Below, piece after piece: positions 3,586 to 33,311 of a DNA stretch of 36,227 nt (positions within the stretch are counted from its first letter, which is position 1; every line of letters starts with the position of its first letter). The DNA comes from Bacteroidota bacterium. Its GTDB lineage: Bacteria > Bacteroidota > Bacteroidia > 2-12-FULL-35-15. Both the position numbers and the translations under genes were made by a program. Location of the stretch: positions 4,183-40,409 of the forward strand of contig JAHEYB010000030.1 of the NCBI GenBank assembly GCA_023251805.1. Reading direction: 5' to 3'. The notes beneath the pieces were generated by a model. It saw only the letters and a list, made by a program, of their open reading frames with translations. It did not search any database and had not been told where the DNA came from.

Positions 3586-3658
3586 GCTCAGACTGACGGA
3601 CCAATAGAATCTATGATTAAACATCGCACCGAACGTCACACTGAGCGTAGTCGAAGTG
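3586..3658. repeat. Palindromic interspersed element inside the 5' end of the LolA-like reading frame
   Basis: The left arm GCTCAGACTGACG (3586-3598) and right arm CGTCACACTGAGC (3634-3646) are inverted copies agreeing at 11 of 13 positions, with a 35-base loop. The right half continues GTAGTCGAAGTG to 3658, matching the element at 233-257. The block lies between an ATG that overlaps the upstream stop (3529) and the hydrophobic core of the signal peptide, and keeps the frame open. Translated, it gives the charged TERHTERSRSV stretch. Confidence 0.75.
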
Positions 3659-4296
3659 TATTATTTTCGACAACCGTTACCATTATTCTTTTTATTTCCT
3701 CCTTCACCTTCGCACAAGTTCCTGCTGGCTTCAAACCGGTAAAAGATACTACTGCTTTCAAACAAAAAATGGAAGCACAATCAAAACTCATTAGCACTTT
3801 GGAAAGTGATTTCACGCAAGAAAAATATTTAAGTGTGATGTCGGAAAAAATTATCAGCAAGGGACATTTTCATTTCAAAAAAGTAAATATGTTACGATGG
3901 GAATACAATGAACCGTATAAATATTTAATCGCTATCAACAAAGACAAAATGTTTATTAAGGACAATGGAAAGGTGAGCAAGTATGATATCAATTCCAATA
4001 AGATGTTCAAAAGCATCAACGAAATGATGGTAAACACTGTTCAAGGGAATCTATTGAATAACAAGGATTATAAAGCAAAATTTTACGAAAATGAGAAGTT
4101 TTATATGTTGGAATTATCGCCTTTGCAAAAAGGAGCAAAAGATTTTTTAAAAGTAATTCAACTTTACATCAACAAAACCGATTATGCGGTTGACAAAGTA
4201 AAAATGATTGAACCGAGTGATGATTATACCAGCATTGATTTTTCGAACCGTAAAACCAATCAGCCAATAGCAGATGAAAAATTTATTATTAAGTAG
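3613..4296 (+). CDS. LolA-like outer-membrane lipoprotein carrier protein
   Basis: After a signal peptide (hydrophobic core VLFSTTVTIILFISSFTFA, cleavage near FAQ) the mature part has the pattern of the LolA/LolB half-barrel: SDFTQEKYLSVMSEKIISKG, then HFHFKKVNMLRWEY, a standard periplasmic lipoprotein carrier motif. Such proteins shuttle lipidated cargo from inner to outer membrane, and LolA-like genes are regular members of aryl polyene clusters. The frame is open from ATG 3529, which overlaps the deacetylase stop (ATGTATAA), but that would put 44 residues before the hydrophobic core. ATG 3613 gives a more normal signal peptide, although its first residues are encoded by an interspersed repeat. 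The original start may have been 3529 before the insertion. The start is uncertain; the family assignment is good. Confidence 0.8.
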   Translation: MIKHRTERHTERSRSVLFSTTVTIILFISSFTFAQVPAGFKPVKDTTAFKQKMEAQSKLISTLESDFTQEKYLSVMSEKIISKGHFHFKKVNMLRWEYNEPYKYLIAINKDKMFIKDNGKVSKYDINSNKMFKSINEMMVNTVQGNLLNNKDYKAKFYENEKFYMLELSPLQKGAKDFLKVIQLYINKTDYAVDKVKMIEPSDDYTSIDFSNRKTNQPIADEKFIIK

Positions 4297-4906
4297 TTTC
4301 ATCGGGCTTGTATTATCAAGCTGTTCATTCGGTCTTTATGGACGATATAGTGAAGTAACTCAGGCCTATTCAACTTATCCCAAAGCTATTTTTGGCGACA
4401 ATTTTAATTCCTTCCTTTTTAAAACAAACATCACCGTTTACGGAAAAGATTATAGTGGATTACTCGTTACAAAACAAATGTCGCCACAAGATTACCGTGT
4501 AATTTTTACCACTGAGCTAGGAATGAAATTGTTTGATTTTGAATTTAAGGACACTGCATTTACCTTACACTATTGCGTTCCACAATTCAACAAACCAAAG
4601 TTGCTAAAAGTGATACAAAAAGATATCGAGGTACTATTGATGAATAACCTTTCGTCAAAAAAGACCGAATTATATAGAGATAAAGAAGGGCTGTTAAGTA
4701 TTCACAAAATTGAATTCGGTCCAACTCAAAACTATTATTTTATCGAAAAAAGCTCCCAACATTTGATTAAAATTGAACAAGCTAAAAAAAGGAGAAAAAA
4801 GACTACCTTTACACTTTCAAATTATCAAGCTGATTTCCCCGGAAATATTTTGATTCAGCATCACGATATTAAATTGAAAATAGAATTAAATTTGCTTAAA
4901 AAATAA
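4274..4906 (+). CDS. Predicted lipoprotein of the pigment cluster
   Basis: This 210-residue protein starts with a lipoprotein signal, MKNLLLSSFIGLVLSSC, with the lipobox cysteine at residue 17. The rest is beta-rich with no motif I recognise. It begins 23 bases before the end of the LolA-like gene in another frame, so the two are probably translated together. A LolA-like carrier with a small lipoprotein suggests a LolA/LolB-type relay, with this protein as the acceptor in the outer membrane. That is inference from position and size only. No family can be named. The C-terminus is lysine-rich (KLKIELNLLKK). Confidence 0.72.
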   Translation: MKNLLLSSFIGLVLSSCSFGLYGRYSEVTQAYSTYPKAIFGDNFNSFLFKTNITVYGKDYSGLLVTKQMSPQDYRVIFTTELGMKLFDFEFKDTAFTLHYCVPQFNKPKLLKVIQKDIEVLLMNNLSSKKTELYRDKEGLLSIHKIEFGPTQNYYFIEKSSQHLIKIEQAKKRRKKTTFTLSNYQADFPGNILIQHHDIKLKIELNLLKK

Positions 4907-4914
4907 TTTCTTTT

Positions 4915-4944
4915 TTTTGACTTTTGACTTAACCCTTTTGACTT
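4915..4944. repeat. Three copies of TTTTGACTT before the dehydratase
   Basis: TTTTGACTT occurs at 4915-4923, 4922-4930 and 4936-4944, the first two overlapping by two bases. The block ends 8 bases before the next ATG (4953). It is a local word repeat of unknown role, like those before several other genes here. Confidence 0.6.
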
Positions 4945-31547: not shown

Positions 31548-31550
31548 TAT

Positions 31551-31650
31551 CACAGGTTTGTAACCTGTGTTTTGCGCCAGATTTGTATCACAGGTTTGTA
31601 ACCTGTGTTTTGCACAAAAAAAATTAAAAAAGACAGGTTTAAAACCTGTC
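31551..31650. repeat. Three palindromes with the core ACAGGTTT...AACCTGT
   Basis: CACAGGTTTGTAACCTGTG occurs twice (31551-31569 and 31589-31607), within longer direct copies that include TTTTGC, and a variant GACAGGTTTAAAACCTGTC lies at 31632-31650. Each is a near-perfect inverted repeat. They start 4 bases after the porT stop and end 36 bases before the next ATG. They may stop or protect the porT transcript. Similar palindromes are dispersed in many Bacteroidota genomes. Confidence 0.8.
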
Positions 31651-31685
31651 ATACAACTTGCACGATAAACACGTGCCACAAAAAA

Positions 31686-33311
31686 ATGAAGCAAGAACTC
31701 AACCTGGTTGTTTCTCCCGAAGAAGCAGCTAATCCCGAAAAAATCAAAGCAATTGTTGCTCGGCAATTGTCTGAAAAAATTTCCAACATCCATTTTATTA
31801 AAATTCTAAAACGTTCCATCGATGCGCGTTCGAGAAATATTAAAGTCAATTTAAAAATTGAAGTGTACATCAATGAAACAATTCCTGAACCTGTTTCCTA
31901 CAAAATTAATTACCCTAATGTTTCTTCAAAAATTCCTGTGATTGTTATCGGAGCGGGACCAGCAGGATTATTTGCTGCTTTAGAATTGATTGAAAAAGGA
32001 ATGAAACCGATTGTACTAGAACGCGGAAAAAATGTAAAAGAGCGCAGAAGAGATTTAGCGACTATCAATAAAGAAGGAATTGTAAACCCACATTCGAATT
32101 ATTGTTTCGGAGAAGGAGGCGCTGGAACATATAGTGATGGTAAGCTGTACACACGTTCCACAAAACGTGGCGACATTACTAAAGTATTAGAAACATTTGT
32201 TGCTCATGGTGCAGAAGAAACCATTTTAATTGAAGCACATCCACACATTGGTACAAATAAACTTCCGAAAATAATTGAAGCTATGCGTCAAACCATTATC
32301 GACAATGGTGGCGAAGTACTTTTTAATACGCATGTAATTGATTTGATTGTGAAAAATAATTCGATAAAAGGTGTTGTTTGCAAACAATCGGAAACAGATG
32401 CATCTCTTGAATTTATTGCTGATTCGGTTATTCTTGCAACAGGACATAGTGCAAGAGATATTTTCGAACTATTGCATTCAAAAAACATTTTGATTGAGGG
32501 CAAAACCTTCGCAATGGGTGTTCGTGTTGAACATCCGCAAGCCTTGATTGATTCATTGCAATACCACTGCTCATTAAACGAAGTAGAACACAAACGCGAC
32601 TATTTGCCCGCATCTTCGTACAGCTTAGTCCATCAAGCATTAGGTCGTGGTGTCTATTCTTTTTGCATGTGCCCCGGTGGAATTATCGCTCCTTGTGCCA
32701 CTGCACCGGGAGAAGTAGTTACAAATGGTTGGTCTCCATCTAAACGAAACAATCCGTTTGCTAATTCCGGCATAGTTGTTACTATTGAGCCTGAAGATTA
32801 TAAACAATTTGCATCTCACGGACCATTAGCTGGGTTACGCTATCAGCAAGCATTGGAAAAAATGGCCTACCTAGCCGGCAGGCAGGCCTACATAGCCGGC
32901 AAGCAGGCCTATTCAGCAGGTGGAAACGGACAAACCGCTCCGGCACAGCGTTTGCAAGATTTTGTAAATAATAAACTTTCTCCATTCCTACCCGATGTTT
33001 CTTATCAACCAGGAATTAAATCTGCGCCACTGCATGAATTGTTACCAACAGAAATTGGGAAACGATTACAAATTGGCTTTGTTGAATTTGGAAAAAAAAT
33101 GCGTGGTTATTTAAGTAATGATGCGGTAATTGTTGGAGTTGAATCGCGTACATCCTCTCCCATTCGTATTCCAAGAGATAAAGAAACAATGGAACACCCT
33201 CAAATTAAAGGTTTATATCCTTGCGGAGAAGGTGCCGGATATGCAGGAGGAATTGTTTCGGCAGCAATTGACGGACAAAAATGTGCGAATGCGATTGCAG
33301 GAAAAAATTAA
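31686..33311 (+). CDS. FAD-dependent dehydrogenase (NAD(P)/FAD oxidoreductase family)
   Basis: From ATG 31686 the protein has 541 residues. An N-terminal alpha/beta domain (about 1-75, with LKRSIDARSRNIKVNLKIEVYI) precedes a FAD-binding fold at PVIVIGAGPAGLFAALELIEKG (GxGxxG at 89-94) and the family hallmark NYCFGEGGAGTYSDGKLYTRS; the end PCGEGAGYAGGIVSAAIDG closes the FAD site. This is a widespread, poorly characterised FAD-dependent dehydrogenase family. Residues 394-414 are three 7-residue repeats (AYLAGRQ, AYIAGKQ, AYSAGGN) encoded by a minisatellite; relatives would be expected to have just one. The frame extends 27 residues upstream to 31605, but that part is translated palindromic repeat, so ATG 31686 is preferred. 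Confidence 0.85.
   Translation: MKQELNLVVSPEEAANPEKIKAIVARQLSEKISNIHFIKILKRSIDARSRNIKVNLKIEVYINETIPEPVSYKINYPNVSSKIPVIVIGAGPAGLFAALELIEKGMKPIVLERGKNVKERRRDLATINKEGIVNPHSNYCFGEGGAGTYSDGKLYTRSTKRGDITKVLETFVAHGAEETILIEAHPHIGTNKLPKIIEAMRQTIIDNGGEVLFNTHVIDLIVKNNSIKGVVCKQSETDASLEFIADSVILATGHSARDIFELLHSKNILIEGKTFAMGVRVEHPQALIDSLQYHCSLNEVEHKRDYLPASSYSLVHQALGRGVYSFCMCPGGIIAPCATAPGEVVTNGWSPSKRNNPFANSGIVVTIEPEDYKQFASHGPLAGLRYQQALEKMAYLAGRQAYIAGKQAYSAGGNGQTAPAQRLQDFVNNKLSPFLPDVSYQPGIKSAPLHELLPTEIGKRLQIGFVEFGKKMRGYLSNDAVIVGVESRTSSPIRIPRDKETMEHPQIKGLYPCGEGAGYAGGIVSAAIDGQKCANAIAGKN
32865..32920. repeat. In-frame 21-bp minisatellite in the FAD dehydrogenase gene
   Basis: Two 21-bp units (32865-32885 and 32886-32906) start GCCTAC and contain TAGCCGGCA; a third, partial unit follows (32907-32920). 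The unit length is a multiple of three, so copies add AYxAG(R/K)Q heptapeptides without a frameshift. The core GCCGGC is palindromic and its flanks (CCTACCTA / AGGCAGGC) are partly complementary. GC content is clearly higher than in the surrounding gene. Confidence 0.8.

Follow-up and report, generated by a model that had tools for sequence, protein, structure and literature searches.

Passages of Di Nocera et al. (2013; PMC3733652) report CGTC-tagged repetitive extragenic palindromic (REP) repeats from Bacteroidetes among five phyla, and describe four families with a terminal CGTC (or TGTC or CCTC) outside the stem, a stem of 8–9 bp with A-T at its first two positions, and a CCA tail. According to the same passages, these repeats are mostly intergenic with some intragenic copies and occur mainly as HH dimers, TT dimers being rare; the Rickettsia palindromic elements RPE-4 and RPE-6 are equated with CGTC-tagged repeats. 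No transposase is linked to the CGTC repeats in these passages. At dimorphic loci, described in passages of PMC2884548 for Escherichia coli, Staphylococcus aureus and Streptococcus pyogenes, a short segment is replaced by another, often within a gene. Here, we analysed a 36,227-nucleotide stretch of DNA (contig JAHEYB010000030.1; hereafter the window) from an uncultured Bacteroidota bacterium, whose genome is a draft of 2.98 Mb in 80 contigs and 80% complete. Four genes in the window, encoding a LolA-family protein, an acyl-CoA mutase, a heptose-7-phosphate kinase and an FAD-dependent dehydrogenase, carry repeat blocks inside their reading frames. The LolA, mutase and kinase blocks appear to be copies of short dispersed hairpin repeats (families F1 and F23), and the FAD block looks F4-like. 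We consider it likely, at a probability of roughly 75%, that these repeats are extragenic palindromes scattered over the genome, of which a rare copy that lands in frame and does no harm is kept. The four genes and their repeats are located as follows.

3529..4296, + strand: LolA-family gene, starting at 3529, or at 3613 with a shorter signal peptide (open reading frame; Pfam LolA at residues 88–254; a simple gene caller prefers 3613).
3557..3598, − strand: what is left of the inverted F1 partner in a tag-to-tag pair, interrupted by 22 bp at 3564–3585 (comparison with genome G011).
3586–3658: LolA block, 48% G + C (open frame).
3634..3659, + strand: F1 copy in the LolA frame, CGTC-ACA-CTGAGCGTAGTCGAAG-TGT, translated RHTERSRSV (sequence; core search).
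23318..24904, − strand: acyl-CoA mutase large subunit gene of the methylmalonyl-CoA mutase family (Pfam MM_CoA_mutase; best PDB relative 4r3u).
24797..24838, − strand: F23-type segment of 14 codons, YPSPSPLGRVGEGY, replacing seven native codons (comparison with relatives; F23 match at 24807–24825).
24800–24837: mutase block, 66% G + C (open frame).
28904..29941, + strand: heptose-7-phosphate kinase (PfkB) gene (Pfam PfkB; names of database relatives).
28938..28974, + strand: F23 copy in the N-terminal extension of the kinase, translated VSLSSGEVWREV, 54% G + C (sequence; F23 search).
31686..33311, + strand: FAD-dependent dehydrogenase gene, for which a start further upstream is also possible (open reading frame; gene caller; Pfam).
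32865–32920: FAD block, 64% G + C (open frame).
32868..32909, + strand: in-frame insertion of 42 bp (2 × 21 bp) with an F4-like core, translated YLAGRQAYIAGKQA (sequence; genus comparison).

The original prediction, made from the letters of the window, held that four repeats are translated in frame without disruption, and each block is indeed real and lies in an uninterrupted open frame at its predicted position, with a G + C content of 48–66% against 34.8% for the window. It also placed three blocks ahead of the conserved domain; this is the case for LolA and for the kinase, in which the PfkB domain begins at residue 31, after the F23 copy, but not for the mutase, whose block falls inside the Pfam match (residues 12–524). 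The encoded residues proved to be extra, being absent from most relatives read at all four genes.

The repeats recur throughout the genome, as had been suspected. With the reversed pattern searched over the same genome as the control for each family, the F1 pattern (CTGAGCNNNGTCGAAG, at most one mismatch) gave 182 matches against one, and the F4 pattern (CCTNCCGGCAGGCAGG, at most two mismatches) gave 94 against one, most F4 places being scored on both strands because the pattern is palindromic. The F23 pattern (CTCCNNNGGAGAGGNNNGG, at most one mismatch) gave 13 matches against none, with the mutase and heptose kinase copies both among them. F23 is built of a CCCTCTCC-N3-GGAGAGGG hairpin and a GC-rich tail, and a CGTC-type tag was not found on it. 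Another palindrome, F5, has nine places in the genome in all.

Placement was counted in 392,400 bases (103 merged segments, the window included) of the 2.98 Mb, in which the coding share is 85.5%; the F1 places fetched were, among the matches listed, about 100 of the 182. Genic sites made up 7 of 111 for F1, 7 of 42 for F4, 6 of 11 for F23 and 0 of 6 for F5. Measured against the coding share, far fewer F1 and F4 sites lie in genes than expected (binomial p 7e-78 and 4e-23), and the depletion of F23 is much weaker (binomial p 0.014). F1 and F4 sit chiefly between genes, and those copies that are genic are best regarded as landings that the genes tolerate; F23 is the exception, being genic at roughly half of its few sampled sites. 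In-gene copies occur in both orientations and in more than one reading frame. The expectation that unrelated genes would carry in-frame repeats was borne out by 15 further repeat-bearing genes in the sample outside the window. Fourteen of them were scanned against Pfam (the C51 gene was left out) and 13 were assigned to a family, including a UvrD-like helicase, arginyl-tRNA synthetase, AnmK, an aminotransferase, a menaquinone-biosynthesis protein, a radical-SAM protein, a ROK kinase, phosphoglycerate mutase (iPGM) and PriA.

The structure of F1 was examined in 110 copies with full flanks. The tag begins seven bases before the core and reads CGTC in 74 and TGTC in 24 copies (98/110). Arm positions 1 and 2, which adjoin the core, form Watson–Crick pairs in 87% and 92% of copies, compared with averages of 29% and 42% in shuffles, and the stem changes are compensating, with four pair types at position 1 and three common ones at position 2. 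A-T at both first stem positions was found in only 17/110 copies and a CCA tail in 0/110. In the folds predicted for two copies, the tag stays unpaired and 5 + 2 pairs form. Among 32 close pairs of F1, 19 are tag-to-tag, eight are in the reverse arrangement (tail-to-tail) and five run in the same direction. F1 was intergenic at 104 of 111 sampled sites. Across the phylum, 46 of the 296 genomes sampled, from 26 of 140 genera, contain tagged F1, with one match for the reversed pattern. Four F1 16-mers were not found in any paper within the open-licence PMC text. The genome encodes one intact IS200-type transposase (Y1_Tnp) gene and one broken one. F1 was not found at up to two mismatches in the 3.3-kb locus of the intact gene (L079), the locus covered by that search. 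In this locus, the 450 bp that precede the transposase gene hold five GTCCC-N3-GGGAC palindromes (at most one mismatch), which are perhaps a REP family of their own.

At the LolA site, the protein search led to 17 loci in named genomes, 16 from metagenome-assembled Bacteroidota and one from a more distant Flavobacteriaceae. F1 is present at this site in the source genome (G000), as an intact tag-to-tag pair in G011 and as two F1-like copies in L263, and was found in none of the other 15 of the 17 loci. The LolA block begins at 3586 because the remnant of the inverted partner precedes the copy at 3634–3659. Most LolA relatives without F1 have a Met shortly before the hydrophobic stretch. Here, the only in-frame ATG, GTG or TTG codons before that stretch lie ahead of the repeat (3529 or 3613), so that the basic front of the signal peptide comes from the repeat unless translation begins at an unusual codon.

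At the mutase site, the segment between VY and an E.PG-like motif has exactly seven residues in 24 of the 29 genomes read from the genus of the source, which comprises 36 genomes in the comparison set, and in 97 of 120 database relatives. It has fourteen residues in G000, G006, G044 and G013 and about ten in G050 (read by eye); in these five genomes the same seven codons are replaced by an F23-like segment, that of G013 being only loosely F23-like. A tree of 149 rows was built with the segment left out; on it, the 16 rows labelled as having an insert (14 distinct) require nine changes, eight of them forced by starred branches; the labels came from the residue pattern, with G013/P0030 added by hand and the repeat-like P0032, P0033 and P0046 left unlabelled. 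The labels are clustered on this tree (0/500 shuffles as low), so part of the distribution is descent. G000 and G006 fail to group in a smaller tree. Two database proteins, P0015 and P0084, agree in the 22 residues that precede the segment and in the 492 that follow it; they differ only in the segment itself, which is twelve residues long in one and seven in the other. The mutase of genome G051 matches P0084 over all 519 residues read. Native seven-residue segments are alike from genus members out to the more distant G029, and hence the empty sites are not explained by a single ancient insertion that was later simply deleted, but would be by replacement on several occasions or by allele exchange. 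Where DNA was read (G000; G006 with G044; G050), the mutase and kinase inserts look alike in orientation by eye. An AlphaFold model of the mutase from a shallow alignment was poor (mean pLDDT 51.5). Separately, a 92-bp tandem duplication at 24843–25042 covers the start of the mutase gene; its upstream copy reads MEEKERKDKFLTDSNLS and then a stop, and the MEEKERKDKF of that copy is nearer to close relatives than the mutase copy now in use.

A repeat-like N-terminal segment of the kinase occurs in G000 and G013 among 30 loci read (own included; L109 is without its N-terminus). Of 120 kinase rows, nine lacking the motif were dropped; in the tree of the remaining 111, nine rows have repeat-like N-termini (labels for P0241 and P0333 added by hand) and need seven changes, four of them forced, with 7/500 shuffles as low. 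At L142:14641, G003 has an F4 copy just before the heptose kinase gene, and G000 has F23 inside the front of the gene.

The FAD insertion is clean and was seen in one of the 30 genus genes read (own included; G042 unread), not being found in the other 29; among database relatives, 21 of 120 rows stayed unread. Its unit matches the 12-base F4 core exactly and differs from the F4 pattern at two positions, and its variant, CTAGCCGGCAGGCAGG, is also located at two other loci (C33 and C41). The AlphaFold model, again from a shallow alignment, was poor (mean pLDDT 63.2) and was not relied on; it places the insert at a predicted helix end.

Mobility of F1 and F4 is inferred from these filled and empty sites. 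On the reading that we prefer, a copy landing in a gene would survive only where it keeps the frame, brings no stop and meets a segment that tolerates extra residues; such segments would be the front of the signal peptide in LolA, the N-terminal arm of the mutase, the N-terminal extension of the kinase and an internal segment of the FAD protein. The genic copies are then most likely neutral passengers. Several points weigh against this account. F23 is genic at more of its sites than expected of an extragenic repeat (Fisher p 0.00015 against F1; 0.003 without the window copies), and the repeated hits on the mutase site, which took the form of replacement, are not what random landing would predict. 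Given its partial likeness to native AYxAGG, the FAD unit may have an origin other than an F4 landing. Repeat content decided which stretches were sampled, the genome is 80% complete, and the coding share of 85.5% comes from genes called with a simple dicodon script.

The recurrence at the mutase site raises a different explanation, namely that the mutase segment, and perhaps that of the kinase, was swapped for an F23-like one by site-preferring insertion or by recombination of alleles between species, which we regard as quite possible though short of probable. It is consistent with the replacement of the same seven codons in 5/29 genus genomes, with the nine mutase changes and the seven kinase changes (eight and four forced), and with P0015 and P0084, which differ only in the segment, the latter having a genomic counterpart in G051; passages of PMC2884548 describe segment replacement at dimorphic loci of other bacteria. 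However, the labels on which the trees depend are residue patterns, some of them assigned by hand (G013/P0030; P0241, P0333), the frame and orientation of the inserts are not settled from proteins, as a palindrome reads alike in several frames, the clustering of the mutase label reflects descent in part, and P0015 is one sequence, known at the protein level. A narrower version, in which the seven-codon segment is a landing site where F23-kind hairpins replaced it repeatedly across the genus, recently enough to leave filled and empty alleles in otherwise identical proteins, is put forward tentatively and appears rather unlikely; if true, it would mean repeat-driven, site-preferring segment exchange within a strongly conserved enzyme. 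The original prediction proposed, should the families recur across the genome, a system that generates coding sequence in unrelated proteins, as with Rickettsia palindromic elements. In-frame copies in many unrelated conserved genes and the six genic F23 sites would fit repeats adapted to that role, but genes hold fewer F1 and F4 copies than the coding share would give, the copies are read in both orientations and in more than one frame, and most LolA and FAD relatives read lack the residues, which makes such an adaptation improbable.

For the FAD gene alone, the insert may have arisen from a native 21-bp segment, by slippage or by duplication in tandem, and not from a mobile repeat; in our estimate this has a little less than an even chance. 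Each 21-bp unit can be aligned with the native AYxAGG, GCCTA stands at each unit boundary, and other database relatives have YLAGRQ, YLSGRQ or YLAAKQ at the first unit; against this are the exact 12-base match to the F4 core in so AT-rich a window and the variant at C33 and C41. As the unit partly resembles native residues, the origin of this insertion is not certain. An assembly or binning artefact could be suspected in a draft of 80 contigs, the more so for the FAD insert, which has no witness in a second genome, but the frames are intact and the same kinds of insert occur at the LolA, mutase and kinase sites in other genomes, and we judge an artefact very unlikely indeed.

Other repeats in the window are located as follows.

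233..258, + strand: F1 copy between genes, continuing into CGAAGGG tandem repeats (sequence).
31551..31607, + strand: two F5 copies (CACAGGTTTGTAACCTGTG) directly upstream of the FAD gene, taken as non-coding (sequence; genome search).

At 31541–31651, a shorter palindrome, ACAGGTTTAAAACCTGT, related to F5, joins both F5 copies upstream of the FAD gene. A tandem repeat of 45 bp in 2.4 copies lies at 1509–1615, at the 3′ end of a gene that we take, from its sequence, to be ketosynthase-like.

Intragenic REP-type repeats are a kind already known; the recurrent mutase site could be the part that is new, no literature search aimed at that site having been made. One lineage with empty-site relatives here shows small palindromic repeats becoming protein, which for F1 and F4 happens seldom, as a side effect of intergenic spread, and the mutase locus, filled and empty in otherwise identical proteins, is a natural place to study repeat movement.

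Among the known systems, GTAG REPs with RAYT likewise combine dispersed hairpins with an IS200-type transposase gene in the genome, but the repeat that accompanies the transposase gene here is another palindrome, not F1. The mutase site is like the dimorphic loci in the passages of PMC2884548 in that a short, often genic segment is exchanged, and unlike them in that the incoming segment resembles a dispersed repeat. F1, F4 and F23 share with Rickettsia palindromic elements, to which they were likened by description, a small palindromic form and in-frame translation within genes of unrelated kinds; they differ in their host and in that F1 and F4 are mostly intergenic. The parallel with these elements drawn in the original prediction is apt in kind, as passages of PMC3733652 equate RPE-4 and RPE-6 with the CGTC repeats that F1 resembles. 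Compared with the CGTC-tagged REPs of those passages, F1 lacks the A-T pairs in most copies (17/110 have them) and the CCA tail in all (0/110), and its tail-to-tail pairs (8/32) are not rare; it is therefore filed as CGTC-REP-like, without being assigned to any of the four families in print. With its unpaired CGTC or TGTC tag, short hairpin, mostly intergenic location with some genic copies and, if H denotes the tag end, a prevalence of tag-to-tag pairs, F1 closely resembles the published CGTC-tagged REPs.

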